Of a stretch of DNA of 64,000 bases, positions 5,333 through 40,427 are shown piece after piece. Source of the stretch: Agromyces agglutinans (GTDB lineage Bacteria; Actinomycetota; Actinomycetes; Actinomycetales; Microbacteriaceae); the NCBI RefSeq assembly GCF_009647605.1, contig NZ_WJIF01000006.1, forward strand, positions 139,068 to 203,067, given 5' to 3'. The notes beneath the pieces were generated by a model. The model worked only from the letters and a program-made list of their open reading frames with translations, was not told where the DNA came from and did not search any database. Made by a program: the position numbers and the translations under genes. Numbering within the stretch: position 1 is the stretch's first letter; each line of letters begins with the position of its first letter.

Positions 5333-5338
5333 CGGGCA

Positions 5339-6565: not shown

Positions 6566-6566
6566 A

Positions 6567-6605: not shown

Positions 6606-6640
6606 GAGTGGCGTTCCGGAATTCTCCCAGCGGTCGGCCG

Positions 6641-6646
6641 TACACT
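6641..6646 (+). promoter_or_regulatory. -10 element TACACT for leaderless purE
   Basis: TACACT is followed by seven bases and then the GTG start of purE at 6654. This spacing places the transcription start on or next to the start codon. purE, and the overlapping LCP gene, can therefore be transcribed independently of purK. Confidence 0.65.
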
Positions 6647-6653
6647 TCATCGA

Positions 6654-8521: not shown

Positions 8522-8603
8522 GCTGCGCTCTCGCTGGGTCGGTTGCTCGGTCGGCGGCGGGTGCCTCGCGGTTGGGCTGGCTCGTCTGCGGGCGGATGCC
8601 TCG

Positions 8604-9740: not shown

Positions 9741-9798
9741 GTGGCTCCTCGACTGCACGGGCGGGGACGAATGTCACCCTATCGGGGGGTGCCGGAGG

Positions 9799-10707: not shown

Positions 10708-10752
10708 CACCGGTCGAGTCGGACGCTCACGGGGACGGCTCGGCGCGGGCAT

Positions 10753-10759
10753 TAGGCTA
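10753..10759. promoter_or_regulatory. Overlapping divergent -10 elements (TAGGCTA)
   Basis: TAGGCT on the plus strand (10753-10758) and TAGCCT on the minus strand (10759-10754) are the same seven bases read both ways. They would serve the coiled-coil/glycosyltransferase pair on the right and the rhamnosyltransferase-like gene on the left. Confidence 0.5.
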
Positions 10760-10792
10760 GTTTACGACCGCCGCCGAGAGGAACGAACACCG

Positions 10793-11077
10793 GTGCCTTC
10801 CGACCTGAAATCCACGTGGCCAGATGATGCCCGCGACGTGCGTCCGACTCGCGAGCAGCTGCTCGCGGAGGAACGGCTCGCCTTCACCGATCGGATCATC
10901 GGGCTCGAGGAGCAGGTCAAGGAGCTTCGCCGGGAGTCCATCTCCGGCCCGAGCGAAGCCGTGGCCGTCGAATCGAATCTCGCAGCGCTCCAGTCGTCGA
11001 CGACGTGGAAGGTCGGGCGGGTCGTGATGCTGCCCATGCGCGCCTTGCGTGTGATCAAGCGGCGAGTGCTGCGTTGA
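10793..11077 (+). CDS. Small coiled-coil protein of the glycan locus
   Basis: A 94-residue protein with no family name I can give. GAGAGGAA lies about 10 bases before the GTG start. Residues 20-50 form a charged helix (REQLLAEERLAFTDRIIGLEEQVKELRRE) with coiled-coil spacing. The C-terminus reads SSTTWKVGRVVMLPMRALRVIKRRVLR, a basic amphipathic end very like that of the methyltransferase at 14579-15499 (SSTSWRVTRPLRSLGTRLQ). Its stop overlaps the TTG of the next glycosyltransferase. It may be a membrane-tethering subunit of that enzyme. Confidence 0.7.
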   Translation: MPSDLKSTWPDDARDVRPTREQLLAEERLAFTDRIIGLEEQVKELRRESISGPSEAVAVESNLAALQSSTTWKVGRVVMLPMRALRVIKRRVLR

Positions 11078-24101: not shown

Positions 24102-24970
24102 CGCGTCGTCGTGCGAGCCGGGTTCCCGAGCACCTGGGAACCGGCCTCCACGTCGCGGAACACCACGCTTCCGATACCGACTCTGGCGCCCGCGCCGACA
24201 CGCACCCGGTCGATCAACATTGCGCCCGGCCCGATCCAGACATCATCCGCGATGTGTGTACTTCCAGCGAGGACCGCGCCCGCAGCGACGAACACGCGCT
24301 CGCCGAGCTGGCTCCCGTGGGCGATCATCACGTTGCAATCGAGTCGCGAGTCGGCGCCCACGATGGTGTGCCGCCGCTGGAAGCCGCGGCCGACTACCGT
24401 CAGCGAACCCACCTCGACACCCGCCCCGATCCTGGTCTCACCGTCGTGGACGACGGAAAGCACACCGCGCGAGGTTCGCTTGTGCTCGAAGCCGCTCGTG
24501 CCGATCACCGCACCGGCGCGGATGACGGCACCCTCCTCGATTCGCGACGATGCGAGAATTGTGGCGTTCGCCTCCACGACGACCCTCGCAGCGATCTCCA
24601 CACCATGAGGGTCGACATGCGCGGTCGGATGTACGGAAGCGTCGTGCGCGATCGTTGTCGCGGGCGCCGCTTCCGATGCAGAGGCGGCGAGATGATTATG
24701 CAGTGTGTAGAAGTGCCATCGCGGATCGTTCACGACCACGATCTGGACGTGGTCGGCAACCTTCTGACGCACGCCAGCCTCGATCTCCGGGGCGACGAGG
24801 AGCACCGCGAGCGACGGGTTCGCCGCGGCGCCCTCGAGGAATCGGAGGTCGTCGAGGAAGCTGAGAATCGAACGACCCGGATCGTTCCCGGCGAGGTCGA
24901 GCGACTCGACGGCGAACTCCGTCCTGGACTCGGTGCCGGTAGCGAGCAGGAAGTCGTTCTCGGTGATCAT
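24098..24970 (-). CDS. LpxD-like left-handed beta-helix acyltransferase
   Basis: A 290-residue protein laid out like LpxD: a globular N-terminal domain (residues 1-105, ending RWHFYTLHNHLA) followed by about ten hexapeptide coils to residue 280. MIAHGSQLGERVFVAAGAVLAGSTHIADDVWIGPGAMLIDRVRVGAGARVGIGSVVFRDVEAG keeps the catalytic-type His in IAHGSQLG. LpxD adds a 3-hydroxyacyl chain from acyl-ACP to an amino sugar; sugar N-acyltransferases of NeuD type share the fold. The next genes on the other strand encode an ACP and a KASIII enzyme, which suggests an acyl-ACP donor. The ATG lies 6 bases after TAGAAT (24982-24977), so it is probably leaderless. Confidence 0.8.
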   Translation of the reverse strand: MITENDFLLATGTESRTEFAVESLDLAGNDPGRSILSFLDDLRFLEGAAANPSLAVLLVAPEIEAGVRQKVADHVQIVVVNDPRWHFYTLHNHLAASASEAAPATTIAHDASVHPTAHVDPHGVEIAARVVVEANATILASSRIEEGAVIRAGAVIGTSGFEHKRTSRGVLSVVHDGETRIGAGVEVGSLTVVGRGFQRRHTIVGADSRLDCNVMIAHGSQLGERVFVAAGAVLAGSTHIADDVWIGPGAMLIDRVRVGAGARVGIGSVVFRDVEAGSQVLGNPARTTTR

Positions 24971-25082: not shown

Positions 25083-25310
25083 GTGCTCAGCAGCACCGAT
25101 CTCAAGAAACTGATCGACGACGCCCTCGGAGGCGAGACCCCGGTGGGGCGCCCTTCCGATCGAGATTGGGACTCACTCGACCAACTCGAGATCACCACGC
25201 ACCTTCACGACGAGCTCGGCGACCGTGTGAACGAGATCGAAGGGCTGAATTCCTTCGAGACGTTCGATCAGCTGGTCTCGATCCTCCGGGCGGAGGGATT
25301 CGTTGAGTAG
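25083..25310 (+). CDS. Acyl carrier protein
   Basis: A 75-residue ACP with the phosphopantetheine-attachment motif DWDSLDQLEI, Ser31 being the modified residue. The acidic four-helix pattern and length are typical. The Asp-Ser-Leu is preceded by Trp-Asp rather than the more usual Gly-Xaa, which marks specialised ACPs rather than the housekeeping AcpP. GGAGG lies 6 bases before the GTG. It overlaps the KASIII gene by 8 bases, so the two are a dedicated pair within the glycan locus. Confidence 0.88.
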   Translation: MLSSTDLKKLIDDALGGETPVGRPSDRDWDSLDQLEITTHLHDELGDRVNEIEGLNSFETFDQLVSILRAEGFVE

Positions 25311-26271
25311 ACGGTGGGTGTATGGTCCGGCGAAGGCACTCGGGAGCGTCGAAGTCGATGTAGCCGAGTTGCTCGAAGCCCACGGCCCGGTTCGCCCTGG
25401 CTTCCTGGAGAAGACCGGTTTCCGCAAGCTCTACGCGACGGCAGACGACGAGTCCGCGGTCGACCTTGGAACCGACGCGGCGCGATCCCTCGATCCGGAG
25501 TGGTGGGTGCCGGTCGTGGACGGACTGATCCATGTCTCGTCGACGGGCAGCCTCGTCGCACCGGGAAACGCGCACCTCCTGCACGAGCGGCTCGGCCTGC
25601 CGCGAGAGATCTTCCTGCTCGACGTCAACGACGCGTGCACCGGTTTCGTCCGTTCGCTCGTCGTCGCCGACGCCCTCATCGAGTCCGGAGCGGTCTCGAC
25701 GGTCATGATCGTCGCGGCGGACACGTATACGAAGCTCTACGACGACAGTGAGCTCAAGGTGTCGCCGCTCTTCTCAGACGGCGCGAGCGCGTTGATCCTC
25801 AGCGGGCAGCCGCTGGCCGATGTTCCGGAACACGTCCCGGCCTACGAATGGGAGATTCTCGCGACATCGTTCCTCTCTGAAGGTGTCCATGCCGGTGAGT
25901 TGTGCATCACGCACGACCGGGATCGGGCTTCCGGTCACCTCACCATGAACGGCGGCGCGGTGTTCAACTTCGTCCTCCGCAATCTCGGGGGCGTTCTGAC
26001 CCGACTCCGCGATGACGCCGGTATCGAGGAGGAAATCGAGATCGACTGGTACGTGCATCAGGGATCGCGGGCGGTCGTGAACGCCGTGGAAAAGGCGCTC
26101 GGGGCGGCGCCCGATGCACTTTTCCGGTCTTCCGAGTATGGCAACGTCGTCCAGAGTTCGATTCCGTTCCAACTGGCGGATGCCCCCGCTTCGGCGGAGA
26201 CCATCGGTCTCGTCGGCTTCGGCGTCGGCCTCACCATGGCGGGAGCACTCGTCCGCCAGGTGCGAATCTGA
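25303..26271 (+). CDS. 3-oxoacyl-ACP synthase III-like protein
   Basis: Thiolase-fold condensing enzyme, 322 residues. The triad is visible: Cys112 in NDACTGFV, His252 in YVHQGSRAVVN, and Asn281 in EYGNVVQSS. FSDGASALIL and the C-terminal VGFGVGLTMAGALV match FabH. KASIII joins an acyl-CoA starter to malonyl-ACP. In polysaccharide loci, such enzymes with their own ACP supply short 3-oxo- or 3-hydroxyacyl groups for amino sugars, which is my reading here. The TTG start overlaps the ACP end, with GGAGG upstream. Confidence 0.87.
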   Translation: MSRRWVYGPAKALGSVEVDVAELLEAHGPVRPGFLEKTGFRKLYATADDESAVDLGTDAARSLDPEWWVPVVDGLIHVSSTGSLVAPGNAHLLHERLGLPREIFLLDVNDACTGFVRSLVVADALIESGAVSTVMIVAADTYTKLYDDSELKVSPLFSDGASALILSGQPLADVPEHVPAYEWEILATSFLSEGVHAGELCITHDRDRASGHLTMNGGAVFNFVLRNLGGVLTRLRDDAGIEEEIEIDWYVHQGSRAVVNAVEKALGAAPDALFRSSEYGNVVQSSIPFQLADAPASAETIGLVGFGVGLTMAGALVRQVRI

Positions 26272-26337: not shown

Positions 26338-27117
26338 TCACGCGCTGTGGCGCAGTTCGCGCGAGCTCCTGGTACGCACCGCGAGGTCGGCGAGCGGGGT
26401 GCCGAATTCGAATGCGCCGGTTCCGGACGCGGAGACGAGGTCGGCGAGGAACGTCGCCGCACCCGGGCCGCGGTGGAGGTAGTCGATGGCATCCGACGCG
26501 CGGGCACGCCGAACGTCCCCCCCGTGGAAGCTTCGGAGCGCGTGGTAGTTGACGGGCGTGGCGCTGTTGAGCGCTACGTGGATGGGGTGAAGATCGACGA
26601 TGGTCAGTTCGTCGAGGCTGTCTCGCTCGGCGAGGAAGGCGTGACCATCCCAGCGCGGGGCGGGTGCGAAGAACTCGAGGTCGTCCTCCCAGACGTACGG
26701 CGCGCGGGCGAGTGATCGCCCGTGGTCGAGTGGAAGCTCCGAGACCGTTACGTCCGTCAGGTCGCGCACGTACAGGCTCGAGTCGAGGACCACGGGGCTG
26801 TGATCCACGACCGCTTGCAGGATAGGCGTGGATTGCACGAGGCAGTGCGTTCGCATCGTGAGAGCTTCCGGCACAATACGCATGCATTCCGCGATCACCG
26901 AGACCGGGTCGGCGCCGTGGCTCGACCCCGGCTGGAAATTCGGGTGAATGCCAAGGTCAACCAGGTCGGGGTGGCGGCGCAGTTCATCCAGCATGTCGCT
27001 CTCGTGCGTGATGAACCACGTCGAACGGACGCCACCCTCGAGAAGAGTGTCGAGTAGGCCGTGCATCGCCCAGTCGGGCGCCCAATCTACGTCGATCGTC
27101 ACGAAGACCTCATGCAC
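26338..27117 (-). CDS. WbmS-like polysaccharide deacetylase family protein
   Basis: A 259-residue protein with NodB-fold features: FVTIDVDWAPDWA (Asp9 and Asp11 in the metal-binding position), STWFITHESDML, and LGIHPNFQPGSSHG with His58. This arrangement fits the WbmS branch of polysaccharide deacetylases, first named in a Bordetella O-antigen locus, rather than classical chitin deacetylases. It has no signal peptide, so a cytoplasmic sugar substrate is likely. GGGAGG lies 9 bases before the GTG. A role in removing an N-acetyl group before re-acylation by the neighbouring enzymes is an inference. Confidence 0.75.
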   Translation of the reverse strand: MHEVFVTIDVDWAPDWAMHGLLDTLLEGGVRSTWFITHESDMLDELRRHPDLVDLGIHPNFQPGSSHGADPVSVIAECMRIVPEALTMRTHCLVQSTPILQAVVDHSPVVLDSSLYVRDLTDVTVSELPLDHGRSLARAPYVWEDDLEFFAPAPRWDGHAFLAERDSLDELTIVDLHPIHVALNSATPVNYHALRSFHGGDVRRARASDAIDYLHRGPGAATFLADLVSASGTGAFEFGTPLADLAVRTRSSRELRHSA

Positions 27118-27173
27118 TGTGCTCAACCTCCCGGTTCGCGCCGTTCCGATTCGGCCACAAAGCGGGCCCACCG

Positions 27174-27180
27174 TAGAATA
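27174..27180. promoter_or_regulatory. Overlapping divergent -10 elements (TAGAATA) and a long leader
   Basis: TAGAAT (plus, 27174-27179) and TATTCT (minus, 27180-27175) share the same bases. The minus side would serve the deacetylase-like gene with a leader of about 50 bases. The plus side would give the membrane protein gene a leader of about 215 bases; a second plus-strand candidate, TAGGCT at 27272-27277, would shorten it to about 120. I see no coding frame or known riboswitch in that leader. Confidence 0.5.
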
Positions 27181-27402
27181 GCCGCTGGCGCCTGAGGAAT
27201 TGCGATATGACTCGCGCTGTTGGCGTCCAGGCTGCGATTCGTCGCATCTCAGGCGCTGGCGCGGCCGTTGATAGGCTGTCCCGACGCCATCGTTCGGACG
27301 CTGATCAGCGGGCGGAATCGGGTAACGATCCCTCGTCGAATCGACGGCCGCCGCCGTGTTACTTCCGGATCTGTGTCGATGGGTCCGTGACGAGAGGAAG
27401 AG

Positions 27403-29043: not shown

Positions 29044-30258
29044 TCAGGGCCGCGGGAATCCGGCTCGGTTGTCGGGCTCGAGTCCGGCCAGGCGGCAGAT
29101 GTGCGCTGCGATCTCGAGCGACGCGGTCGCGGCAGGCGACGGCGCGTTCAGCACGTGGACCTGGTGCGGCGCCTGCTCGATCAGGAAATCATCGACCAGC
29201 GTGCCGTCACGACGAATCGCCTGCGCACGCACGCCGGCATCGGCGCGAACGAGGTCGGCCTTGTCGATCGCCGGCACGAGTCGAGCCAAGCTCGCAGCGA
29301 ACACGTCCTTCGACAGTGATCGACGGATCTCCGCCATGCCGACGGCGATGTTCTTCGAGGCCATCCGCAGGAACCCGGGATAGGTCAGATCGCCGAGCGC
29401 CTCGGAGAGGCGGATGTCCCGCCAGGTGTAGCCTTCGCGCGCGAGCGCGGTGACGGCGTTCGGGCCGGCGTGCACAGAACCGTCCATCATGCGCGTCAAG
29501 TGCACGCCGAGGAAGGGAAGGCCGGGATCGGGAACAGGGTAGATGAGCCCCTGCACGAGGTCGCGGCGCTCCGGGACGAGTTCGTAGTACTCGCCGCGGA
29601 ACGGGATGATCCTGGCCGAGGGGACAAGCCCCGCCATTCGCGCCACTTTGTCGCTGAGAAGCCCCGCACAGTTCACGAGCAGATCTCCCGAGTATTCGGC
29701 ATCGGAAGTCGCGACAACGACACCCCCGGGCCGCGATGTGACACTCACGACCTCGGCGGAGGTGTGGAGATCACCGCCGCGTTCGGCGACGAGTTCAGCA
29801 AGTCGACGGCAGACCGCGGCGTAATCGATGATCCCGGTGGACTCGATGCGGAGCGCTCCGACCGCAGCGACATGCGGTTCGTACGCTCGGGCGCCGTCCG
29901 CGTCCAACACTCGGAAGGGAACGCCGTTCGCCTCTGAGCGGCGCTCGAGTTCCCGAAGCGCGGGCAATTCCCGTTCCGACGTCGCCGCGATCAGTTTGCC
30001 GGTGTTCAGCCATGGGATGCCCTGCTCGGTTGCGAAGGCCTTCATCGAGCGGTTGCCTGCCGCGCAGAGGCTCGCCTTCAGGGATCCGGGTTTGTAGTAC
30101 GGTCCGGCGTGGATCACTCCCGAGTTGCGCCCCGTCTGGTGCACCGCCCAGTCCGGCTCCTTCTCGAGCACCGTGACCTGGTTGCCGAGCCGGGAGGCCC
30201 GCTCCGCGACGGCGAGGCCGACGATTCCGCCGCCGATGATGATGACGTGCGTGGACAT
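29044..30258 (-). CDS. lhgO: L-2-hydroxyglutarate oxidase
   Basis: FAD enzyme of the DAO family that oxidises L-2-hydroxyglutarate to 2-oxoglutarate. The 404-residue protein begins HVIIIGGGIVGLAVAERASRLG (FAD-binding GxGxxG). It has HQTGRNSGVIHAGPYYKPGSLKA, the distinctive LhgO segment, then CAGLLSDKVA, FRGEYYELVPE and VHAGPNAVTALAREGY near the end. Length and motifs are typical. It stands alone on this strand, and a metabolic gene is unexpected inside the glycan locus. GGAGG lies before the ATG. Confidence 0.92.
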   Translation of the reverse strand: MSTHVIIIGGGIVGLAVAERASRLGNQVTVLEKEPDWAVHQTGRNSGVIHAGPYYKPGSLKASLCAAGNRSMKAFATEQGIPWLNTGKLIAATSERELPALRELERRSEANGVPFRVLDADGARAYEPHVAAVGALRIESTGIIDYAAVCRRLAELVAERGGDLHTSAEVVSVTSRPGGVVVATSDAEYSGDLLVNCAGLLSDKVARMAGLVPSARIIPFRGEYYELVPERRDLVQGLIYPVPDPGLPFLGVHLTRMMDGSVHAGPNAVTALAREGYTWRDIRLSEALGDLTYPGFLRMASKNIAVGMAEIRRSLSKDVFAASLARLVPAIDKADLVRADAGVRAQAIRRDGTLVDDFLIEQAPHQVHVLNAPSPAATASLEIAAHICRLAGLEPDNRAGFPRP

Positions 30259-30304
30259 GATCCTCCGGGTCCGGCCGGCGAGAGGTCGGGGGCACGGCCT
30301 CGGC

Positions 30305-30311
30305 TACTATA
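30305..30311. promoter_or_regulatory. Overlapping divergent -10 elements (TACTATA)
   Basis: TACTAT on the plus strand (30305-30310) serves the aminotransferase gene about 50 bases on. TATAGT on the minus strand (30311-30306) serves lhgO. Both start regions carry good ribosome sites (GAGAGG and GGAGG), consistent with leaders of about 45 bases each way. Confidence 0.55.
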
Positions 30312-30360
30312 GACGAGGCCCGCCGCCCATGGTCGTGGCCGTCTACGAGAGAGGTTCAGA

Positions 30361-31500
30361 TTGGCCGATACGATCGCCCTCGGGCAGCCCACGGTCGGCG
30401 ATGAGGAGCTCGACGCCATTCGCGCCGTATTCGACTCCGGCTGGCTCTCGGGCGCAGGGCCAACCTGTCAATCCTTCGAGGCGCGGTTCGCAGCGGAGGT
30501 ATCCGGCACGGACCATGCACTCGCGACCAGCAACTGCGGCTCGGCCCTTCACCTGGGTCTCTCCGTCCTCGGTGCGGGCCCCGGCGACGAGGTCGTCGTC
30601 GGCGACTACACCTTCCCTGCGACAGGGCATTCGGTCGCTTGGACGGGTGCGAAGCCGGTGTTCGCCGACATCCGTCCCGACATCTGGAGTGCTGACCCGG
30701 CGTCCGTCGAGGCGGCCATCACGCCTCGCACTGTCGGCATCATCGCGGTCGACGTCTTCGGTCAGCCTGCCGACTACGACGAGCTCCGCGCGATCGCTGA
30801 CCGGCACGGCCTCTGGTTGATGGAGGACGCGGCGTGCTCCGCCGGGGCGACCTACAAGGGGCGCCAGGCGGGAAGCCTCGCGGATATCGCGACGTTCAGC
30901 TTCCATGGCCGCAAAGGCATCACCGCCGGCGAGGGAGGGGCGCTCACGACGAACGACGCAGACCTTGCCGCGCACGCGCGCAAGTTGCACACGTATGGCA
31001 TCGCGCCGGCCATTTCGCGTGAGGGCAGTACCGACCTGCCATTGCCCGTCTTCGACGAAGCGGGCTACAACTACCGCATGTCCGACTTGGCGGCGGGCGT
31101 CATGCTCGCCCAGCTCGACCGACTCCAGACGCTGCTCGCGAATCGACGCCGCGTCGCGGCGTGGTACGGGGAACTTCTTGCCGCTGTCGAGCAGGTGGCC
31201 GCGCCCGTCGCTCTCGACGACCGAGAGCACCCGTGGCAATCGTATGTGGTGACCCTCGCCCCCGAGGTCGACCGTGGTGCTGTCGCCGGCTACCTCCGCC
31301 AGCACGGCGTACAGTGCAACTTCGGGACGTATGCGTCGCACCTCCAGCCTGTGTACGGGTTCGAGGGGAGCTTGCCGGTCTCGGCAGACCTCTTCCATCG
31401 GCACCTGGCGATCCCCATGCACGCGAACCTCACTCAGAGCGAGGTCGAGCGGGTAGTCGCGACGCTGAAGGACGCACTGACCGCTGCCCGCAGCAACTGA
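30361..31500 (+). CDS. DegT/DnrJ/EryC1/StrS sugar aminotransferase
   Basis: PLP enzyme that aminates an NDP-keto-sugar. The 379-residue protein has TSNCGSALHLGLSVLGAG for the phosphate-binding region, Asp156 in LMEDAACS for the pyridine nitrogen, and Lys185 in FSFHGRKGITAGEGG for the Schiff base. NYRMSDLAAGVMLAQLDR follows as usual. The start is TTG with GAGAGG 6 bases upstream. It is followed by an NDP-sugar epimerase and an acetyltransferase on the same strand, a set that would make an N-acetylated amino sugar. The position aminated cannot be read from sequence. Confidence 0.9.
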   Translation: MADTIALGQPTVGDEELDAIRAVFDSGWLSGAGPTCQSFEARFAAEVSGTDHALATSNCGSALHLGLSVLGAGPGDEVVVGDYTFPATGHSVAWTGAKPVFADIRPDIWSADPASVEAAITPRTVGIIAVDVFGQPADYDELRAIADRHGLWLMEDAACSAGATYKGRQAGSLADIATFSFHGRKGITAGEGGALTTNDADLAAHARKLHTYGIAPAISREGSTDLPLPVFDEAGYNYRMSDLAAGVMLAQLDRLQTLLANRRRVAAWYGELLAAVEQVAAPVALDDREHPWQSYVVTLAPEVDRGAVAGYLRQHGVQCNFGTYASHLQPVYGFEGSLPVSADLFHRHLAIPMHANLTQSEVERVVATLKDALTAARSN

Positions 31501-31541
31501 CGCGCTGGAAACCCCGAACCCGATCAAGTAAGGAAACACCT

Positions 31542-32468
31542 GTGACTGACAAGAAGGTCTTCGTCGTCGGCGGAGCCGGATTCATCGGACTGCACGTCGT
31601 CGAGCAGCTGCTCGACGAGGGATGGAATGTCCGCATCTTCGACAACATGGTGCGCGGTGACCGTGACCGGGCCAACGAGCTCGTGAAGACCGGGCGAGTG
31701 GACGTCGTCGACCAGGACACCCGCAACGGCGCTGCCGTGTATGCCGCGATGAAGGGCCATGACTACGTCATCCACCTCGCGGCGGACTCGATCAATAAGA
31801 GCGTGGCCGACCCGTACTCTTCGGTCGACATCAACATCGTCGGCTCGCACAACGTGTTCGCCGCAGCCGCCGACCTGGGTGTCAAGCGCATCGTCGCGGC
31901 ATCCAGCGCATCGGTGTACGGCGACCCCGAGAAATTGCCCATGCACGAGGACGACAAGCTCAACCCGCTCACGCCGTACTGCATCGGCAAGCGCACGAAC
32001 GAGGACCTCCTGGGCTACTACGGGCGCAGCAAGGGTCTCAGCTGGATCGCACTGCGATTCTTCAACGTCTACGGCGAGGGCCAGAAGACCACGGCCTACT
32101 ACACCTCGGTGATCAATCACTTCGTCAACCGGCTGAAGAACGGCGAGCCCCCGGTGATCGACGGAGAGGGCAAGCAATCGATGGACTTCATCCACGTGAA
32201 GGACATCGCTCGCGCGGTCGTCCTCTCCTTGACCTCGGAGCAGGCGAACGTGCCGATCAACGTCGGTACGGGCATTGACACCACCGTCGCTGAACTCGCA
32301 GAAATCCTGATCGATGCGGTCGGTGTCGATGTGAAGCCGCAGTTCAACCCGCGGCCCGTTCTGGTGACGCGCCGTGCGGCGGACATCACACGAGCACGCG
32401 ATGTGCTCGGCTTCGAGGCGAGTATTCCAGTGCGCGATGGAATGACCGCGCTCGTGCGAAACGCCTGA
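31542..32468 (+). CDS. NAD-dependent NDP-sugar epimerase/dehydratase
   Basis: Extended short-chain dehydrogenase of 308 residues acting on a nucleotide sugar. FVVGGAGFIGLHVVEQL is the NAD-binding loop. HLAADSINKSVADPY, AASSASVYGDPEKLP and the YCIGK catalytic Tyr-x3-Lys follow. QSMDFIHVKDIARA and INVGTGIDTTVAELAEIL complete the family pattern, closest in feel to UDP-glucose 4-epimerase/WbpP types. AAGGAAA lies before the GTG. It probably works with the aminotransferase before it and the acetyltransferase 2 bases after it. Confidence 0.88.
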   Translation: MTDKKVFVVGGAGFIGLHVVEQLLDEGWNVRIFDNMVRGDRDRANELVKTGRVDVVDQDTRNGAAVYAAMKGHDYVIHLAADSINKSVADPYSSVDINIVGSHNVFAAAADLGVKRIVAASSASVYGDPEKLPMHEDDKLNPLTPYCIGKRTNEDLLGYYGRSKGLSWIALRFFNVYGEGQKTTAYYTSVINHFVNRLKNGEPPVIDGEGKQSMDFIHVKDIARAVVLSLTSEQANVPINVGTGIDTTVAELAEILIDAVGVDVKPQFNPRPVLVTRRAADITRARDVLGFEASIPVRDGMTALVRNA

Positions 32469-32470
32469 CC

Positions 32471-32920
32471 ATGACGACTGGGCTCCCCGAGAACGCGTAC
32501 AACCCGAACGCATGGATCGTCGGGGAGCCCATCGTCGGCCCGGGCACGTGGATCGGCGCGTTCACAGTGATCGATGGTTCCGGTGGGCTGCGCATCGGCG
32601 AGGGCTGCGACATCTCGTCCGGCGTCCACATCTACACGCATTCGAGCGCCCTGCGCTGCGTCTCGGGGCGAGCGTATCCCGAAGTCGATCGACGACCCGT
32701 CACCATCGGCGACCGGGTATTCATCGGTGCGAACGCCGTCATCAATATGGGCGTCACGATCGGAGACGGCGCGATCATCGGCGCCGGGGCCGTGGTAACG
32801 AAGGATGTCGCGGCGAAGACCGTGGTCGCAGGCGTTCCCGCGCGGGTGATCGGCCTGGTGGACCTGACCGACCCGGCCGTTCCGTCCATCCATCCGATGG
32901 ACGACGATGCTCCACGGTGA
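32471..32920 (+). CDS. Hexapeptide-repeat sugar acetyltransferase
   Basis: A 149-residue left-handed beta-helix protein of the WbbJ/maltose acetyltransferase type. The repeats run from WIVGEPIVGPGTWIGAF to VIGAGAVVTKDVAAKTVVAGVPARVIG; the loop GVHIYTHSSALR contains the likely catalytic His. It acetylates a hydroxyl or amino group using acetyl-CoA. It is the third gene of the aminotransferase-epimerase-acetyltransferase set, so N-acetylation of that amino sugar is a reasonable inference. Confidence 0.86.
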   Translation: MTTGLPENAYNPNAWIVGEPIVGPGTWIGAFTVIDGSGGLRIGEGCDISSGVHIYTHSSALRCVSGRAYPEVDRRPVTIGDRVFIGANAVINMGVTIGDGAIIGAGAVVTKDVAAKTVVAGVPARVIGLVDLTDPAVPSIHPMDDDAPR

Positions 32921-32952: not shown

Positions 32953-34974
32953 TCAGGACGGCGGGGTGACTTCGAAGATTCGGAACTCGCCAGTCCCGCC
33001 TTCGATAGTCCGTACCGACCGCAAACATTCCTGATCGATGTCGTCCATTGCGACGACGTACCGAATGTGCCTCTGCGCGACGGCATTGCACGAATCGAAC
33101 GTGGCAATCACCACATCCGGTCCGGCGGCGGTCACGACAGTCTCACCCGCCGCCGGCGTCCATGCCACAAGCCCGAGGCGGTCCCACGCGTCTCGATATT
33201 GAGCCTCCGGATCGATCATCCGCCACATCTCAGGCGTCGGTGACGACTGGTAACCCGAGAGTGCAGGTACCCCGGTTTCCGTCAGCATGGCGATCGCGGG
33301 ATCCCCCATCGCTATCCAGCGCCCCGGAGCAGCCTCCTGGATCTCGGTCACGGCCTGGGCGACGGGAGTGTCTCGAAGGTCGAACACGCCGGCTCGAAGC
33401 GGATTCACGCCGACGCCGGTCACGACCGACCCGATGAGCAGTGCAGCGACCCCCAAACGCGGGCGGGCGAGGAGGAAGGCGCCGATCGAGACGAGTACCG
33501 CGCCGAGTCCGAGGATCCACTCGCGATCAGTGTGGATGATCGGCGAGCCGGCGCTCACGAGGCGCTGAACGAGGAAACCGTAGACGACGACTGCCAGCCC
33601 CGCCGTGGTGAGCACGATTGGCCAAGGAAAGCGCCGCCGAGGAGCTAGCGCGGGAAGTGTACGGGTGATGAATACGGCGAGCATGACGAAGCTCAGCAGT
33701 CCAATGCCGATTCGCATCCGAGGCACGGTCGTGCGATCGAGGAAGACGAGTCTTGCCACGGCGTCCCACCCCGGCACCGTGTAGAACGCCAGGAATAGCA
33801 GCGCGACTACGAGCGTCGAGCCAGCGATCCAGTCACTGCCGCGGAGACCGCGTTCGCGAACCGAACGCATCCAGCCCCACGCGATCGGCACGGCGAGGAA
33901 TAGCCCCACGAGCACGAACGTGGATGCTTCCGACTCATTCGCACCGAGGATGCCTCCCTTGGCCTCTGCCATGCCGGTGGAAAACGGTGCTGCCAGCAGC
34001 GCCGTGGAATCCGCGATCGTGCCTGCGCCCGTGGCTTGGATTCGTTCCCCGGGATAGCGGGTGCCGAGGAATTGCTGCACTGATTCCAGACGCGTGAACA
34101 ACCAGATTGCGAGCACTCCGATGGCCGAAGCTGCGGCAGCCGCAAGCGGCAAGAGACGTCGGATCCGGACGCGGAGGGGCGAGTCGATCGCCGTCACGAC
34201 CACACCGACGCAGAACGCGATGGCCACCAGGGCGCACGGCACGATGAACGGCACGTAGATGAGCATGCCGACAGCGACGGTGAGGTAAGCGACGATGGCT
34301 GCGAGAACCAGGCCAGCGCGCGGACGCGACCCTCTGGTGAGCCAGACGCAAGCGGTCATCACGCAGAACGCCCAGGCCGGCGTCAATGACGTTGCCGAGA
34401 GATGCCACCACTGGATGAAGGGCGACAAGTAGAAGCTGATCGCGAGCGCCATCGCCATGACCGGGCGCTCCCGCATCAAGGTCAGGAAGAACGCGTAGGC
34501 GGCGCAGAGTAGGACGGCCGGCGGTAGCCACCACTTCAGAGCCATCGCGGCATCGAGCGGCAGGAATGAGAAGCCGACGAGTTCCGGCCGGAACACGACC
34601 GACCAGTCCAGCGAAGGCAGATCATGCTGGATGGTCGTGTTCATTCCCCCCGGGAGGACCGGGTTCACGACCGGGAGGCCGAGTTGGACCTGAGAGATCG
34701 TCCACACCGTCTGGACGTACCACTCGTCGCTGCGCACGGGGCGAGGCTCGCCTGCGATGGCGGAAGGGTCAGCGCCGTCGTAGAAGACCGGCCAGAGTAC
34801 TCCCGACGAACTGCCGGTGATGCCAAGGAATGTCAGTACCGCGAGCAGGAGCGCGATCACGGCCATCGGCCAGAGGAGGACTCCATACCGAGGTAGCCCG
34901 TCGGCGGGTGCCTCCAAGTAGGTCGTCCATCCAGCCACGCGCCGGCCCACGTCGAACCGTCGCCGGGACGTCAT
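32953..34974 (-). CDS. Large polytopic membrane protein with extracellular C-terminal domain
   Basis: A 673-residue protein with about twelve hydrophobic helices between residues 30 and 550. The first outside loop includes GEPRPVRSDEWYVQTVWTISQVQLGLPVVNP with an acidic DE pair as in GT-C and YfhO-like membrane proteins. From about residue 570 to the end is a soluble part (APGRWIAMGDPAIAMLTETGVPALSGYQSSP). I do not recognise a characterised family with certainty. A role in glycan transfer outside the membrane is likely from its layout. Its stop overlaps the dehydrogenase gene start only at the ends of the two proteins (4 bases). Confidence 0.72.
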   Translation of the reverse strand: MTSRRRFDVGRRVAGWTTYLEAPADGLPRYGVLLWPMAVIALLLAVLTFLGITGSSSGVLWPVFYDGADPSAIAGEPRPVRSDEWYVQTVWTISQVQLGLPVVNPVLPGGMNTTIQHDLPSLDWSVVFRPELVGFSFLPLDAAMALKWWLPPAVLLCAAYAFFLTLMRERPVMAMALAISFYLSPFIQWWHLSATSLTPAWAFCVMTACVWLTRGSRPRAGLVLAAIVAYLTVAVGMLIYVPFIVPCALVAIAFCVGVVVTAIDSPLRVRIRRLLPLAAAAASAIGVLAIWLFTRLESVQQFLGTRYPGERIQATGAGTIADSTALLAAPFSTGMAEAKGGILGANESEASTFVLVGLFLAVPIAWGWMRSVRERGLRGSDWIAGSTLVVALLFLAFYTVPGWDAVARLVFLDRTTVPRMRIGIGLLSFVMLAVFITRTLPALAPRRRFPWPIVLTTAGLAVVVYGFLVQRLVSAGSPIIHTDREWILGLGAVLVSIGAFLLARPRLGVAALLIGSVVTGVGVNPLRAGVFDLRDTPVAQAVTEIQEAAPGRWIAMGDPAIAMLTETGVPALSGYQSSPTPEMWRMIDPEAQYRDAWDRLGLVAWTPAAGETVVTAAGPDVVIATFDSCNAVAQRHIRYVVAMDDIDQECLRSVRTIEGGTGEFRIFEVTPPS

Positions 34975-35942
34975 TGTTCGACGTTGGCGGACGAGGCGCT
35001 CTTCAGCGATTCGACGATCCGGTGAGCCGGAAGAAGCGAGGCTCGTTCCGCATCCGCGTCCACGCGTCCTTCGATCAGGCCCACGAAGTGCTCGAGCTGG
35101 GCAGCGAGCGGTTCGCGGGCTGTCACCAACTCGGGGATTTCGATGACGGTCTGTTGTCGGTACCCGCGCCCTTCGGTGTCTGCGGCCTGGTCCGAGACGT
35201 GCCGGTATACGGTCACATCGCGGCGCAGCAGGTCGATTTCGATGAGCTTGTCGAGGTCATGAACGCTCATCGTCCGGATCTTGCGTTGCCCGACGCGACT
35301 TGCGGACACATGCGCGACTCGGCCGCCGTCGAATGTGAGGATGGCTTCTGCCACGTCCTCAGCGCCCGGAACGGACATCGGGTGGAACTGCCCCAGGGCG
35401 CCGGTGATGGCGCTCGGGTCGCCGCCGAGGAACCTGCTGGCGAGATCGACGTCGTGCACCAGCAGATCCCAGCCGACTCCGGTTCGAATGCGCGGAGCAT
35501 ACGGCGAATGCCGCGTCGCGGTGATGAACTTCGGATCGTCGACGAGGGCCTTCGCCGTCATGACCGCCGGATTGAATCTCTCGAGGAGACCGCACATCAG
35601 GGGCACCTGCCGCTGCGCGGCGAGATCGAGAACGGCGATCGTCTTCTCGAGGCTGTCGGCGACGGGCTTCTCGACGAGCAGCGGCTTGTCGGCTTCGAGC
35701 ACCGATCTGGCGAGGTCGAAGTGGGCTTCCGTGGACGCCGCGATGACAACGGCGTCGACGGTGTCGATGCGCGAGAGATCAGGGGCCCAGTCCGACCCGT
35801 AGCGGTCTGCGACAGCGCGGCCGACGTCTTCACGTCCGTCGACGATCACGGCGAGGTCCGCTTCGGCGGACTGCGCGATCACACGTGCGTGGAGCGAACC
35901 CATCGAACCGGCGCCGATGAGCATGATACGGGGCACTGCCAT
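34971..35942 (-). CDS. Gfo/Idh/MocA sugar dehydrogenase, GnnA/WlbA-like
   Basis: NAD-dependent oxidoreductase of 323 residues. MLIGAGSMGSLHARVIAQ is the Rossmann loop, the family motif EKPVADS has Glu91-Lys92-Pro93, and DLLVHDVDLASRFLGG carries His163 and Asp164 of the catalytic region. It is 2 bases downstream of a DegT aminotransferase. Such pairs oxidise C3 of a UDP-GlcNAc-type sugar and aminate it (GnnA/GnnB in lipid A, WlbA/WlbC-like in O-antigens). The start at 35942 is chosen because the fold begins there; the longer frame upstream is a shadow of the aminotransferase gene. Confidence 0.87.
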   Translation of the reverse strand: MAVPRIMLIGAGSMGSLHARVIAQSAEADLAVIVDGREDVGRAVADRYGSDWAPDLSRIDTVDAVVIAASTEAHFDLARSVLEADKPLLVEKPVADSLEKTIAVLDLAAQRQVPLMCGLLERFNPAVMTAKALVDDPKFITATRHSPYAPRIRTGVGWDLLVHDVDLASRFLGGDPSAITGALGQFHPMSVPGAEDVAEAILTFDGGRVAHVSASRVGQRKIRTMSVHDLDKLIEIDLLRRDVTVYRHVSDQAADTEGRGYRQQTVIEIPELVTAREPLAAQLEHFVGLIEGRVDADAERASLLPAHRIVESLKSASSANVEQ

Positions 35943-35944
35943 GT

Positions 35945-37048
35945 TCAGGCAGCTCCGATGACGTCGGCGACCGTCTCGACGATCTGGTCGAGATCGGAGT
36001 CGGTCAGGTGGGTATGGACCGGAAGGGAGACGACTTCGGTCACGATCCGTTCGGCGACGGGATACTCCTCGATGATGACGTCGTGGCGGTTGCGGTAGGG
36101 CTCGTAGTCGAACACGAGCTTCGGATAGTACACGCCGCATCCGATTCCGCGCTCGCCGAGCTTCGCAACGAACTCGTCGCGCTCGATGCCGGCCTCACGA
36201 GTCACGCGGACGGTGAACTGGTGCCAGACATGTCGACGGCCCTCGAGTTGTCGAGGCGGGATGATGCCCGGGACGGCGGCCAGACCTGCTGCAAGCCTGG
36301 TGGCGTTCGCGTGCCGCTTGACGACGACGTCGTCGTATCCGGAGAGCTGGGGAAGGCCGACCGCAGCCTGCAGATCGGTCATGCGCCAATTGTTGCCGGC
36401 GACCTCGTACTGGTACCTGGCGCGCATGCCCTGGTTGCGCAGCACGCGGAGTCGGTCTGCAAGCACGTCGTCGTCGGTCGTGACGATGCCGCCCTCACCG
36501 GTCGTGAGGTTCTTGGTCGCGTAGAACGAGAAGGAACCGAGGCCGAACGTGCCCGCGCCGCGACCCCGGTAGGTTGCGCCGTGCGCCTGCGCCGCGTCTT
36601 CGACGATCGCGAGGCCGTGCTCGGAGGCGATCGCCGTGATCCCGTCCATGTCGGCTGTCTGGCCGTAGAGGTGGACGGGCATGAGGACACGCGTTCGATC
36701 GCCGACCGTCGATCGAACGGAGGCGGCGGTGATGTTGAAGTCATCGTCCGAGATGTCCGCGAAGCGTGCCGTTGCGCCGGCAGCGAGGATCGCGTTCAGC
36801 GTCGCAACGAACGTGAACGGACTGGTGATGACTTCGTCGCCGGGTTCCAGGTCGAGCACAGCCAATGAGGCGATCAGCGAGGTCGTGCCGTTGTTGACGG
36901 CTACGGCGTGCTTCGCCCCGACGAGGTCCGCGAATCTCCTCTCGAACTCGGCGACTCGCGGGCCTTGGGCGATGCCGCCTGACCTGAGGGTCTCGAGGAC
37001 GAGGCGTTCGACCTCGGGTCCGAGTTCGACGACGGTGATTGGTATCAT
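35945..37048 (-). CDS. DegT/DnrJ sugar aminotransferase, GnnB/WlbC-like
   Basis: PLP aminotransferase of 367 residues starting MIPITVVELG. AVNNGTTSLIASLAVL is the cofactor phosphate site, Asp151 lies in VEDAAQAHGA, and Lys179 in SFSFYATKNLTTGEGG is the Schiff-base lysine, in the ATKN form typical of UDP-3-keto sugar aminotransferases. NNWRMTDLQAAVG and VWHQFTVRV follow. GGAG lies about 10 bases before the ATG, with TAGAAT on the minus strand at 37105-37100. It forms an operon with the dehydrogenase and the large membrane protein. Confidence 0.9.
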   Translation of the reverse strand: MIPITVVELGPEVERLVLETLRSGGIAQGPRVAEFERRFADLVGAKHAVAVNNGTTSLIASLAVLDLEPGDEVITSPFTFVATLNAILAAGATARFADISDDDFNITAASVRSTVGDRTRVLMPVHLYGQTADMDGITAIASEHGLAIVEDAAQAHGATYRGRGAGTFGLGSFSFYATKNLTTGEGGIVTTDDDVLADRLRVLRNQGMRARYQYEVAGNNWRMTDLQAAVGLPQLSGYDDVVVKRHANATRLAAGLAAVPGIIPPRQLEGRRHVWHQFTVRVTREAGIERDEFVAKLGERGIGCGVYYPKLVFDYEPYRNRHDVIIEEYPVAERIVTEVVSLPVHTHLTDSDLDQIVETVADVIGAA

Positions 37049-37099
37049 GAAGCCTGTTTCTCCGGTGGCAGCGTCCATGGGCGTCGATGCGCCCCGAAC

Positions 37100-37105
37100 A
37101 TTCTA
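37100..37105 (-). promoter_or_regulatory. -10 element TAGAAT for the aminotransferase operon
   Basis: ATTCTA on the plus strand reads TAGAAT on the minus strand, about 51 bases before the ATG at 37048. The overlapping TTCTAT (37101-37106) is a weak plus-strand candidate for the flippase-like gene. Confidence 0.5.
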
Positions 37106-37177
37106 TGGGCGTCTGCGGTGCCATTCGATCATGTCACTCTCTGCATGGGTCGCACCGGAGCCGAGACGGAAGTTGAA

Positions 37178-38188
37178 ATGCCTCGAAAGCCCTCGGTGTC
37201 GCCGAAGACGCTCCTGATCATCCGATATGCCCTCGTCATCGTCGTGGTCGGCTTCGCGGTCTACTACCTCGCCGGACAGTGGCAGGACGTGCAGGAGACC
37301 ATCGCGGTGATCTCCTGGCCGTCGCTCGCGCTTTCCCTTGCGCTCGTGTTGGTGGGGCTGGCGTTCGGAACGCTGAGCTGGGTCACCATCCTGAACGGCC
37401 TCGGCCCGAAGGTACCTCTGCTCCGGGCGTCGCAGGTGCTGCTCGTGGGACAGCTCGGCAAGTACGTTCCCGGCTCGGTGTGGTCGTACGTGATGCAGAT
37501 GGAGCTCGGCCGCCAGTACGGCATTCTTCGGCCCCGGGTCCTCGTCACCGCGCTGTACGCGGCGGGTATCGGTGTCGTCGCATCGCTGATCCTCGGCGGC
37601 CTGGCGTTGCCGGTCGTCGTCGAGGGTCATGAATGGACGCTCTGGCTCTTCGTGCTGTTGCCGATCGGGCTCGTGTGCCTGCACCCGCGAATCATGACCT
37701 GGCTCGCCTCTGCGGTCTTGAAGCTCTTCCGGCGACCGCCGCTGGAACACCGCGTCACGTGGCGGGCGGTGCTCGGTGCACTGGGCTGGTCGCTGCTTTC
37801 GTACGTCGCGTACGGCCTGCATCTGTGGGTTCTCGTCAATTCCCTCGTCGACCCCGACCTCGGGACGCTCATCCTCCTGACCGGTGCCATCTCGCTCGGA
37901 TTCACCCTCGGACTTCTCGCGTTCTTCCTGCCTTCGGGCATCGGCGTTCGCGAAGCGATCCTGATCGGCGCCATGGGCGTGCTCCTCACGGTGTCGCAGG
38001 CCACGGCGATCAGCCTGGTCTCGCGCATGCTCTTCACGCTCGGGGATCTGATCGCTGCCGGCGTCGCCATCGTGTTCGTATTGCTCATGCGGCGTCGGCT
38101 CGCGCGGGAGCAGCTGGAGTACCTCCGCGAGGAGGTTCGTTACGAGCACGGCAGATCGAGCGACGAATCGGTGGAGGCGCCGAAGTGA
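37178..38188 (+). CDS. Lysylphosphatidylglycerol synthase-type transmembrane (flippase-like) protein
   Basis: About 336 residues with eight hydrophobic helices. GQLGKYVPGSVWSYVMQMELGRQYG and FFLPSGIGVREAILIGAMG are the two signature loops of the LPG_synthase_TM/AglD-like family, whose members flip lipids or lipid-linked sugars. No lysyl-transferase domain is attached. The ATG at 37178 (MPRKPSVSPK) is favoured because residues before it are not family-like; starts at 37145 or 37118 cannot be excluded. The next gene overlaps its stop, linking it to the LpxA-like acyltransferase. Confidence 0.82.
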   Translation: MPRKPSVSPKTLLIIRYALVIVVVGFAVYYLAGQWQDVQETIAVISWPSLALSLALVLVGLAFGTLSWVTILNGLGPKVPLLRASQVLLVGQLGKYVPGSVWSYVMQMELGRQYGILRPRVLVTALYAAGIGVVASLILGGLALPVVVEGHEWTLWLFVLLPIGLVCLHPRIMTWLASAVLKLFRRPPLEHRVTWRAVLGALGWSLLSYVAYGLHLWVLVNSLVDPDLGTLILLTGAISLGFTLGLLAFFLPSGIGVREAILIGAMGVLLTVSQATAISLVSRMLFTLGDLIAAGVAIVFVLLMRRRLAREQLEYLREEVRYEHGRSSDESVEAPK

Positions 38189-38880
38189 ACACCATCCACC
38201 CCACGGCTGTGATCACCGGCGACGTGCGACTCGGCGAGCGCAATGTCGTCGGCCCGTTCGCGGTGATCACCGGACCGGTCGTGATCGGTGACGACAACTG
38301 GATCGGCGCCGGGGCGGTGATCGGCGCACCGCCGGAGGTGAGGTCCCATCCGCATCCGCGTGAGGAGGGCGAGCCGGCCGGCAACGGGGTCCGGATCGGC
38401 GACCGCACGACCATTCGCGAGTACGTGCAGATCCACCAGGGCTGGAAGTCCGAGACGCGCATCGGCGACGATGTGTTCCTCATGAACCAGGTGTATGTCG
38501 CCCACGACGGCGAACTCGGCGCCGGTGTCACCCTCGCGTCGAGTGTCCTGCTCGCGGGCCACGTCAGGATCGGAGCGGGTGCCAACCTCGGGCTGGGAAC
38601 GAGCGTGCACCAGTTCCGCGAGATCGGCCGCGGGTCCATGGTCGGCATGGGGTCGGTCGTGACGACGGACCTGCCGCCGTACGCGAAGGCCTTCGGAAAT
38701 CCCGCGCGGGTCCGTGGCGCGAACGTCGTCGGCATGGAGCGTTCGGGCGTGGAACCAGCGCTGACCGATGTGCTCGCCGTCGTCTACGCGGGCGGGGTCG
38801 CCGACCTCTCGAGCATTCCCGACCGTGAGATCCGTGTGGCGGTCGAAGCCTGGACGGCGCGTTCGGGAATCGCGCAGTGA
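38185..38880 (+). CDS. LpxA-like acyl-ACP--UDP-sugar acyltransferase
   Basis: A 231-residue beta-helix protein strikingly like LpxA, the first enzyme of lipid A synthesis in Gram-negatives. TTIREYVQIHQG (residues 75-86) matches the RIRESVTIHRG segment. His107 in YVAHDGELG is in the catalytic-base position, His126 is in LAGHV, His142 in TSVHQF, and ANVVGMERSGV supplies Arg186 of the GLKRRGF motif. The C-terminal helical part is shorter than in LpxA (about 262 residues). Its GTG overlaps the flippase-like stop, and GnnA/GnnB-like genes lie just upstream on the other strand. Acyl chain length and sugar are unknown. Confidence 0.83.
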   Translation: MNTIHPTAVITGDVRLGERNVVGPFAVITGPVVIGDDNWIGAGAVIGAPPEVRSHPHPREEGEPAGNGVRIGDRTTIREYVQIHQGWKSETRIGDDVFLMNQVYVAHDGELGAGVTLASSVLLAGHVRIGAGANLGLGTSVHQFREIGRGSMVGMGSVVTTDLPPYAKAFGNPARVRGANVVGMERSGVEPALTDVLAVVYAGGVADLSSIPDREIRVAVEAWTARSGIAQ

Positions 38881-40427
38881 GCGGCGGGCGCCGCAGCGGT
38901 CGTCACTCGCTCGCCTTCGTCCTTCCGTTCGCGATCACCGCGCTGTTCGGCATCCTCTGGGCGCTCGCCAGCCCCGTCTTCAGCATTCCCGACGAGAACG
39001 CGCACGCGACGAAGGCGATCGCGCAGGCGCGCGGCCAGATCGTCGGCTACACGCTTCCCGACGTTCGCCACATCGTCGTAGACCTCCCGGCGGGCTACGG
39101 CTACAGCCAGGATGTGCTGTGCTACGCGACGCATCCGGAGGTCGACGCCGGGTGCGCGCCCGAGTTCGGGGGAGCGGACACCCAGCCCTGGTTCAACACC
39201 TGGGTCGGCGCGTACAACCCCGTCTACTACTTCCTGATCGGCTGGCCGAGCCTGCTGATGGACGGATCGGCGGCCATCTACGGCATGCGCATCGCGAGTG
39301 CGCTGCTCTGCGCCGCGTTCGTGGGCCTGGGCTACTTCGCGGCGACGAGCGGCTCGCAAGCGCGATGGATGCCCGTCGGCATGGCGTTCGCCGCGGCGCC
39401 CATGACCGCGTACCTCTTCGGCGCGGTGAACCCGAACGGTGCTGAGGTCGCTGCGGCCGTCGCGCTGTGGGCCGCGCTGCTTCGATTGCTCGAGTCCTTC
39501 GATCGCGACGATCCGGGTCCGCTCGGTCTGCCTCGGGCGGGGTTGTGGGGCATCGTCGTCGCGGCGGCGGTCCTCCTCGTGAACGCGCGTGCCCTCGGTC
39601 CGCTGTGGTTGGTCGTCGTGGTCGCGGTCTGCCTCGTCGCCGTCGGGTGGCGCGCGACGCGGCGGCTGTTCACGACGGCGACGAGCTACGTGTGGATCGG
39701 TGCCGTCGCGGTCGGTGGACTCTTCTCACTGGGCTGGACGCTGTTCGGCGGCAGCCTCTCCAATCAGGCCGAGGCATCCGATGCGCCCCTCGTGAACGGC
39801 AGTTTCCTCCAAGGCTTCGCCTACATGATCCGAACGATGCCCGACCACCTGCAGCAGGCGCTCGGCTACTTCGGCTGGTTCGACATGCCGTTGCCCGTGT
39901 GGGTCTACTGGCCGATCGTCGGGGCCGTCACGGTGCTGCTCGTCCTCGGTCTCGCGGCGACCGGTCGTCGCTCGGCGGCGGTCGCCGTCGGCGTCGTGGC
40001 GGTCGCGCTGCTCGTGCCCGCGCTGGTACAGGGCTACAGCGTGCACCAGACCGGCATCATCTGGCAGGGCCGGTACGGGCTGTTCCTCTACCACGGCGTG
40101 CTCATCGTCGTGGCGTGGCTGCTCAGCCGCGACCGAGGCGCCGCTCGCATCGGATTCCTGGCACCGAGGATGACTCCGTTGCTGGGGGCGGCGCTCGCCG
40201 GGTTCGGCCTGCTCGCGTTCGCGCTCGTGCTGGTCCGTTACGTGATCGGGTGGGGCAGCCCGCTCGGCGAGATGCTCGCCGATCCGGGCTGGCAGCCGCC
40301 GGGCGGGTGGCCACTGCTGGTCGCCGCATACGCGGCCGTCAGTGCCCTCCTGGTCGTCGGAGTCTGGATGCACTCCCGCACCATCGCTCGCGGTGAGTCG
40401 ATGGCCCGGAGCGGTGCGGATGCCTGA
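38877..40427 (+). CDS. DUF2142-family membrane protein
   Basis: A 516-residue protein with about twelve hydrophobic helices. The first loop FSIPDENAHATKAIAQARGQIVG has the PDE-x-H motif of DUF2142, and VNPNGAEVAAAVALWAALL matches the second conserved block (NPN). These proteins share the GT-C layout and are usually found in glycan loci, so use of polyprenyl-phosphate sugars is likely but unproven. The GTG overlaps the LpxA-like stop as GTGA, and the stop overlaps the next glycosyltransferase start by 8 bases, giving a four-gene operon. Confidence 0.85.
   Translation: MSGGRRSGRHSLAFVLPFAITALFGILWALASPVFSIPDENAHATKAIAQARGQIVGYTLPDVRHIVVDLPAGYGYSQDVLCYATHPEVDAGCAPEFGGADTQPWFNTWVGAYNPVYYFLIGWPSLLMDGSAAIYGMRIASALLCAAFVGLGYFAATSGSQARWMPVGMAFAAAPMTAYLFGAVNPNGAEVAAAVALWAALLRLLESFDRDDPGPLGLPRAGLWGIVVAAAVLLVNARALGPLWLVVVVAVCLVAVGWRATRRLFTTATSYVWIGAVAVGGLFSLGWTLFGGSLSNQAEASDAPLVNGSFLQGFAYMIRTMPDHLQQALGYFGWFDMPLPVWVYWPIVGAVTVLLVLGLAATGRRSAAVAVGVVAVALLVPALVQGYSVHQTGIIWQGRYGLFLYHGVLIVVAWLLSRDRGAARIGFLAPRMTPLLGAALAGFGLLAFALVLVRYVIGWGSPLGEMLADPGWQPPGGWPLLVAAYAAVSALLVVGVWMHSRTIARGESMARSGADA

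Follow-up and report, generated by a model that had tools for sequence, protein, structure and literature searches.

Why should a Gram-positive actinobacterium carry a gene for a transferase of the LpxA type beside genes for a dehydrogenase and an aminotransferase of the kind that serve lipid A synthesis in some other bacteria? In Leptospira, the enzymes GnnA, GnnB and LpxA form the route to lipid A that contains 2,3-diamino-2,3-dideoxy-glucose (GlcN3N). Genes resembling this set lie in a 64,000-nucleotide stretch of the 3.9 Mb genome of Agromyces agglutinans (contig NZ_WJIF01000006.1, positions 139,068 to 203,067 of the forward strand), which is called the window here. An earlier, sequence-only reading of this DNA had named a GnnA-like dehydrogenase, a DegT aminotransferase with an ATKN motif and an LpxA-like gene (together, the triad) and had proposed an N-acylated diamino sugar as their product. 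All three are real, intact open reading frames with the expected Pfam families (Table 1), and we consider it probable that they convert UDP-N-acetylglucosamine (UDP-GlcNAc), through its 3-amino derivative UDP-GlcNAc3N, to UDP-2,3-diacetamido-2,3-dideoxy-glucose (UDP-GlcNAc3NAc) for a surface glycan. A prior description of this gene set is possible; none was found in a search of the literature at the level of titles and abstracts.

The grouping of the three genes exceeds chance, because matches to the dehydrogenase and strong matches to the LpxA-like protein fall in the same genomes. Of 150 relatives (the window genome included), 11 contain a match to the GnnA-like protein at E 1e-40 or better, and precisely these 11 give the strongest LpxA-like matches (E 1e-70 or better). 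Relaxing the LpxA-like threshold to E 1e-15 brings the total to 13 genomes; the two extra genomes are G073, whose LpxA-like protein is divergent (45%) with weaker neighbours (31% and 45%), and G067, whose best match is an LpxD-like gene. Both were left out of the triad count, as were L062 (partial), G437 (an LpxD-like match with a 56% aminotransferase and no GnnA match near) and G493 (a 3.3 kb contig without neighbours). With the window included, the triad is present in 23 actinobacterial loci, which is every locus with a strong LpxA-like match, and its carriers include Microbacterium, Cryobacterium, Plantibacter, Geodermatophilus, Rhodococcus and Prescottella records. The aminotransferase gene adjoins the dehydrogenase gene in 22 of the 23, the exception being L072, where a glycosyltransferase-like gene lies between them. 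In 17 loci the aminotransferase gene and the LpxA-like gene adjoin and diverge, with roughly 0.1 to 0.2 kb between them; a membrane protein gene separates them in five (the window type), and in one they are about 5 kb apart.

Wider sampling gave a similar picture. A scan of named genomes with exact peptides of the window LpxA-like protein, which biases it to close relatives, returned 23 loci, namely nine from actinobacteria (all with both partners), 13 from other phyla and one partial; in the fetched DNA around the 13 non-actinobacterial LpxA loci (for some, flanks of only about 3 kb) no triad partner was found. From 396 sampled genomes of the phylum came three triads besides the window, one LpxD-like match and one match on a contig that was too short. 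The LpxA-like protein of M. azadirachtae is 70% identical to that of the window, and two pairs of LpxA-like proteins among the triad loci exceed 85% identity; the 150 relatives and the 23 loci are not independent samples.

By sequence and predicted fold, the dehydrogenase is GnnA-like. Its nearest solved structures by sequence are 7bvj and 7bvk (7bvj at E 1.2e-24), the former titled UDP-N-acetylglucosamine 3-dehydrogenase GnnA of Acidithiobacillus ferrooxidans, and a predicted model (predicted local distance difference test score, pLDDT, 92) returns 7bvj as the top Foldseek hit (E 2.5e-26). WlbA (3o9z), the enzyme of the O-antigen-type alternative, is not among the dehydrogenase's 39 solved-structure matches at E 1e-3. 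The best NCBIfam match is the archaeal UDP-N-acetylglucosamine 3-dehydrogenase model, at 135.7 bits under a cut-off of 450; four other triad dehydrogenases score 125-139 bits, and two non-triad proteins, from L025 (partial, 158.5 bits) and L026 (176.9 bits), score higher than the triad members. The residues EKP (91-93), D159 and H163 are invariant in 23 aligned dehydrogenases. For the aminotransferase, membership in the DegT family is clear from Pfam; its sugar specificity is not readable from sequence, and the name GnnB does not occur among the best 60 of its 61 solved-structure matches, many of which carry a family name only.

The LpxA-like protein keeps the catalytic His of LpxA but departs from it at the chain-length position. 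Its predicted model has the LpxA left-handed beta-helix fold with the catalytic His125 equivalent in place (this is the best of five models, whose mean pLDDT runs from 88 to 59). Pfam assigns Hexapep repeats and LpxA domain 2 (30.5 bits against a cut-off of 24.5, covering 1-40 of 82), and the LpxA equivalog models score under their cut-offs (NF003657, 178.5 versus 226 bits; TIGR01852, 164.4 versus 231.05 bits). His107/Asp108 corresponds to the catalytic pair His125/Asp126 of LpxA, and the equivalents of His125, Asp126, His144, His160, Gln161 and Asn198 are kept in 20 of 20 aligned relatives, that of Arg204 in 19. The LAGHV, VHQF and Arg motifs named in the sequence-only reading are present; the catalytic His lies in VAHD rather than IAHD, and Tyr stands in the place of E. 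coli LpxA His122. In the window protein and all 20 relatives, Met stands at the chain-length ruler position (Gly173 in E. coli LpxA), one 18-residue coil is missing and the C-terminal part is shortened relative to E. coli LpxA. Together with Ile152 to Asn and Gly155 to Leu or Met, the change at Gly173 places larger or different residues at these positions than LpxA has.

The family was also compared with Pcryo_0615 (structure 8e62), an N-acetyltransferase of Psychrobacter cryohalolentis. At 15 sites that separate the actinobacterial proteins from LpxA (G073 excluded), Pcryo_0615 agrees with the actinobacterial proteins at eight, with LpxA at one and with neither at six. The 18-residue gap is also common to Pcryo_0615 and the window family (the place of the missing coil depends on the alignment). 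In an arbitrarily rooted tree, a branch with support of 100/99 has 16 LpxA rows on one side and 21 actinobacterial rows plus Pcryo_0615 on the other. On sequence and modelled structure, the group that the LpxA-like enzyme transfers is most likely a small acetyl and not a fatty acid. A long-chain acyl product appears unlikely, and three features count against it: the missing coil, Met at the ruler and the comparison of sites. The sequence-only reading had held that a place among acetyl-CoA-dependent acetyltransferases would speak against it, and the site comparison comes close to assigning that place, although three of the eight shared states are not confined to this group.

Several observations weigh against the acetyl assignment or the pathway as a whole. 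Whole-sequence scores favour LpxA (4eqy, 121.5 bits) over Pcryo_0615 (111.9 bits); fold scores discriminate poorly (LpxD 22.6, WlbB 21.0). Six of the 15 sites in Pcryo_0615 match neither group, its branch is very long (2.79), and the tree program flags its placement as possibly false. The three shared states just mentioned occur in some LpxA proteins, which lowers the weight of the acetyl reading and raises that of an acyl carrier protein (ACP)-dependent one. The LpxA of P. aeruginosa also has Met at the ruler and was solved with a C10 hydroxyacyl product (title of 5dg3), so that Met alone leaves a medium chain possible. GnnA is only 26% identical to the window dehydrogenase, and the closest solved relatives of the aminotransferase are perosamine synthases. 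A plasmid-borne LpxA of Legionella adelaidensis (L082:4639-5406) also has Phe116 and Asn152, the latter of which might mark 3-amino substrates.

Some other candidate relatives were set aside. Hexapeptide genes on Paracoccus and Limimaricola plasmids, which stand in a row with 6-dehydrogenase, Gfo/Idh and DegT genes, are somewhat nearer to the window LpxD-like protein than to the LpxA-like one (85-89 versus 76-78 bits); their products have Arg and Ser at two LpxA His positions and share Glu73, Tyr122 and Thr134 with the window LpxA-like protein. A Haloprofundus gene proved LpxD-like, without such neighbours. On two Rhodobacterales plasmids (L081:3383-7710 and L083:3323-7678), 6-dehydrogenase, Gfo/Idh, LpxD-like hexapeptide and DegT genes stand in a row.

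That lipid A is not the product, as the earlier reading had it, holds genome-wide for LpxC and LpxB, which are absent from the whole A. agglutinans genome under searches that matched control genomes (LpxK was not searched for). The only match to PF00984 in the genome, a UDPG/MGDP-type dehydrogenase, lies about 145 kb away; no relative of this 6-dehydrogenase is present in the window or in the fetched triad loci at E 1e-8, and one was found only in the non-triad locus L026. With no relative of the 6-dehydrogenase near the triads in the DNA fetched, a neutral sugar is favoured over a uronic one.

Taken together, these results suggest the following pathway, whose substrates, acyl donor, product and polymer we infer. 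The GnnA-like enzyme would oxidise the 3-hydroxyl of UDP-GlcNAc, and the aminotransferase would exchange the resulting C3 ketone for an amine, giving UDP-GlcNAc3N. The LpxA-like enzyme would then acetylate the 3-amine from acetyl-CoA through His107/Asp108, and a glycosyltransferase of the cluster would place the UDP-GlcNAc3NAc sugar into an exported surface polysaccharide. A diamino sugar in an actinobacterial wall is plausible by analogy, since 2,3-diacetamido uronic acid (GlcNAc3NAcA) polymers are known from Streptomyces teichuronic acids (available text of PMC13274773). The first two steps and the exclusion of lipid A in the sequence-only reading are probably right; its diamino-sugar half agrees with the GnnA-type relatives and the conservation of the triad, whereas the fatty-acyl LpxA half is opposed by Met173, the coil loss and the 15 sites, and the third step is best read from the sequence as acetylation.

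Two other readings of the third step and of the sugar must be weighed against this pathway. In one, which is unlikely, the LpxA-like enzyme depends on acyl-ACP and loads UDP-GlcNAc3N with a 3-hydroxyacyl chain of about C10, so that a Gram-positive organism would contain an acylated diamino sugar or glycolipid. The fold, the top sequence scores to LpxA, the kept key residues and the ruler Met of the C10-making P. aeruginosa enzyme all agree with it; Asn152, Leu/Met155, Met173, the loss of the coil, the shortened C-terminal part, the larger number of group-specific sites common with Pcryo_0615 and a genome without LpxC or LpxB do not. The other is a route of the WlbA/WlbB/WlbC type acting on UDP-N-acetylglucosaminuronic acid (UDP-GlcNAcA) and leading to a 2,3-diacetamido uronic acid, as in the Streptomyces polymers. 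The sequence-only reading had named such chemistry as its main alternative, and it is kept here as a rival that we regard as quite improbable. The title of the Pcryo_0615 entry assigns the enzyme to a diacetamido-2,3-dideoxy sugar pathway, the sugar being the glucuronic acid according to the title of a 2023 paper in Protein Sci., and the genome does hold one UDPG/MGDP-type dehydrogenase. That dehydrogenase is distant from the triad, GnnA and not WlbA is nearest to the window dehydrogenase, WlbB reaches 36 bits where LpxA reaches 121.5 for the window transferase, and the want of a 6-dehydrogenase near the triads lowers this route further.

The remaining readings draw on a four-gene module about 10 kb away, which encodes an LpxD-like transferase, an ACP-like protein, a beta-ketoacyl-ACP synthase III (KAS III) and a WbmS-like deacetylase. 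The module also occurs in G043 and, near GnnA-like and DegT genes, in G067, which belongs to another genus; at E 1e-40 the KAS III is found in three of the 150 relatives (the window genome, G043 and G067) and in two of the 11 triad genomes, and at E 1e-45 in the window alone among the 396 genomes of the phylum. One such reading, very improbable, is that a special short acyl group is made by this ACP and KAS III and then moved to the 3-amine by the LpxA-like enzyme. The ACP-like protein (DSLDQLE in all three copies), the KAS III with its Cys, His and Asn motifs and the recurrence of the set in G067 are consistent with such a link. Against it, the KAS III is missing from nine of the 11 triad genomes, so that dependence of the triad on the module is rejected; the module brings its own LpxD-like transferase and deacetylase in the three carrier genomes, and in the tree the window LpxA-like protein does not group with that of G043. 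Most improbable is a Gram-positive counterpart of lipid A acylation, possible for the window and G043 only among the genomes searched, in which the LpxA-like enzyme would acylate the 3-amine, the WbmS-like deacetylase would free the 2-amine and the LpxD-like enzyme would re-acylate it from KAS III-loaded ACP, giving a surface glycan with a doubly N-acylated 2,3-diamino sugar, without lipid A. Any unusual acyl group is more likely to come from the module than from the LpxA-like gene, and its acceptor may be an amino sugar. A flagellar glycan island of Aeromonas has an ACP and fatty-acid-type enzymes (available text of PMC7874193). In L026 (positions 5296-12186; another genus), 6-dehydrogenase, GnnA-like, DegT-like and hexapeptide genes lie beside a WbmS/LpxD-like/ACP/KAS III module, an arrangement which suggests a 2,3-diamino sugar as the substrate of the acyl module.

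Table 1. Genes of the A. agglutinans window discussed in the text (positions are those of the window)
Feature	Position	Strand	Remarks
LpxD-like transferase	24098-24970	-	
ACP-like protein	25083-25310	+	no Pfam/NCBIfam match; named from DSLDQLE motif and length
KAS III	25303-26271	+	Cys, His and Asn motifs in place
WbmS-like deacetylase	26338-27240	-	
LhgO-like FAD oxidoreductase; aminotransferase/GalE-like/small hexapeptide trio	29044..32920	- (oxidoreductase); + (trio)	Pfam; LhgO named by resemblance, Pfam assigns DAO
Large membrane protein (DUF7657/DUF7654), after dehydrogenase	32953..34974	-	PF24677 and PF24672
GnnA-like UDP-GlcNAc 3-dehydrogenase (putative), 323 aa	34971..35942	-	GFO_IDH_MocA, 70 bits
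DegT/DnrJ/EryC1 aminotransferase, 367 aa, ATKN motif	35945..37048	-	PF01041, 398.7 bits; putative GnnB role
LPG_synthase_TM (UPF0104-type) membrane protein, precedes LpxA-like gene	37178..38188	+	PF03706, 57.3 bits; start picked by eye
LpxA-like left-handed beta-helix transferase, 231 aa	38185..38880	+	Hexapep and PF13720; putative 3-N-acetyltransferase
DUF2142 membrane protein	38877..40427	+	PF09913, 146.7 bits

The surroundings of the triad form a large glycan cluster with several glycosyltransferase-like genes, an O-antigen ligase-like protein, rhamnose genes and a Wzm/Wzt-type ABC exporter (named by resemblance, the ATPase being confirmed by Pfam). A gene for an LGFP-repeat protein of 864 aa (20194-22788) adjoins the exporter genes. 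The LpxA-like gene is tightly packed, its GTG start overlapping the stop of the preceding membrane protein gene and its stop overlapping the GTG start of the DUF2142 gene. The LhgO-like gene and the neighbouring trio lie near the triad in the window, G037, G043, G048, G039 and G083 (one cluster type), and L045 has the trio without LhgO. The GalE-like protein of the trio is 80-94% identical in five relatives of the same cluster type. Six other genomes have a close copy of the LhgO-like protein (63-82%). Five of these carry the triad, and in the remaining one, G081, the copy lies on an 11 kb contig without any other window gene. With distant copies, 41 of the 150 genomes (its own included) have the protein, and no other window gene lies near the copies examined in G103 and G107. 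That an L-2-hydroxyglutarate oxidase recycles NADH for the dehydrogenase was an idea only and was set aside.

LpxA is taken as a sign of lipid A, and a conserved actinobacterial family with the LpxA fold and another likely job cautions against the use of LpxA alone. The results raise the possibility that LpxA and sugar 3-N-acetyltransferases are related by origin. Surface glycans with 2,3-diamino sugars are predicted for Microbacterium azadirachtae, Plantibacter and Rhodococcus.

Among known systems, the GnnA/GnnB/LpxA route, also present in Acidithiobacillus, rhizobia and, by genome, Capnocytophaga, resembles the window in its GnnA-type dehydrogenase, its DegT aminotransferase and its LpxA-fold transferase with the catalytic His. 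The window differs in that it is without LpxC and LpxB and in that its transferase lacks the coil, has Met at the ruler and is shortened at the C-terminal end. Its three genes are also neighbours, whereas in the phyllobacteria described in PMC5644692 (available text) gnnA and gnnB lie apart from lpxA. Pcryo_0615 shares with the window protein the LpxA-type helix, the PPE motif, Tyr122, the ruler Met and the 18-residue gap; it is 189 aa long with a shorter N-terminus and is thought to act in a uronic acid pathway, whereas the window-type sets have no relative of the 6-dehydrogenase nearby. WbpB/WbpE/WbpD (WlbA/WlbC/WlbB) and the utr genes of Streptomyces perform the same C3 oxidation, transamination and N-acetylation of a UDP-GlcNAc derivative. 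The former act on UDP-GlcNAcA after a 6-dehydrogenase (available text of PMC10622841), and a UDP-sugar dehydrogenase is also part of the proposed Streptomyces route, as it is of that in P. aeruginosa (PMC13274773, available text). WlbB is by sequence a more distant hexapeptide protein than LpxA. In methanogenic archaea, a 3-dehydrogenase, a transaminase and an acetyltransferase make UDP-GlcNAc3NAc from UDP-GlcNAc, and the archaeal dehydrogenase model is the sub-cut-off NCBIfam match given above. The triad of the window is probably a variant of these known diamino-sugar pathways.

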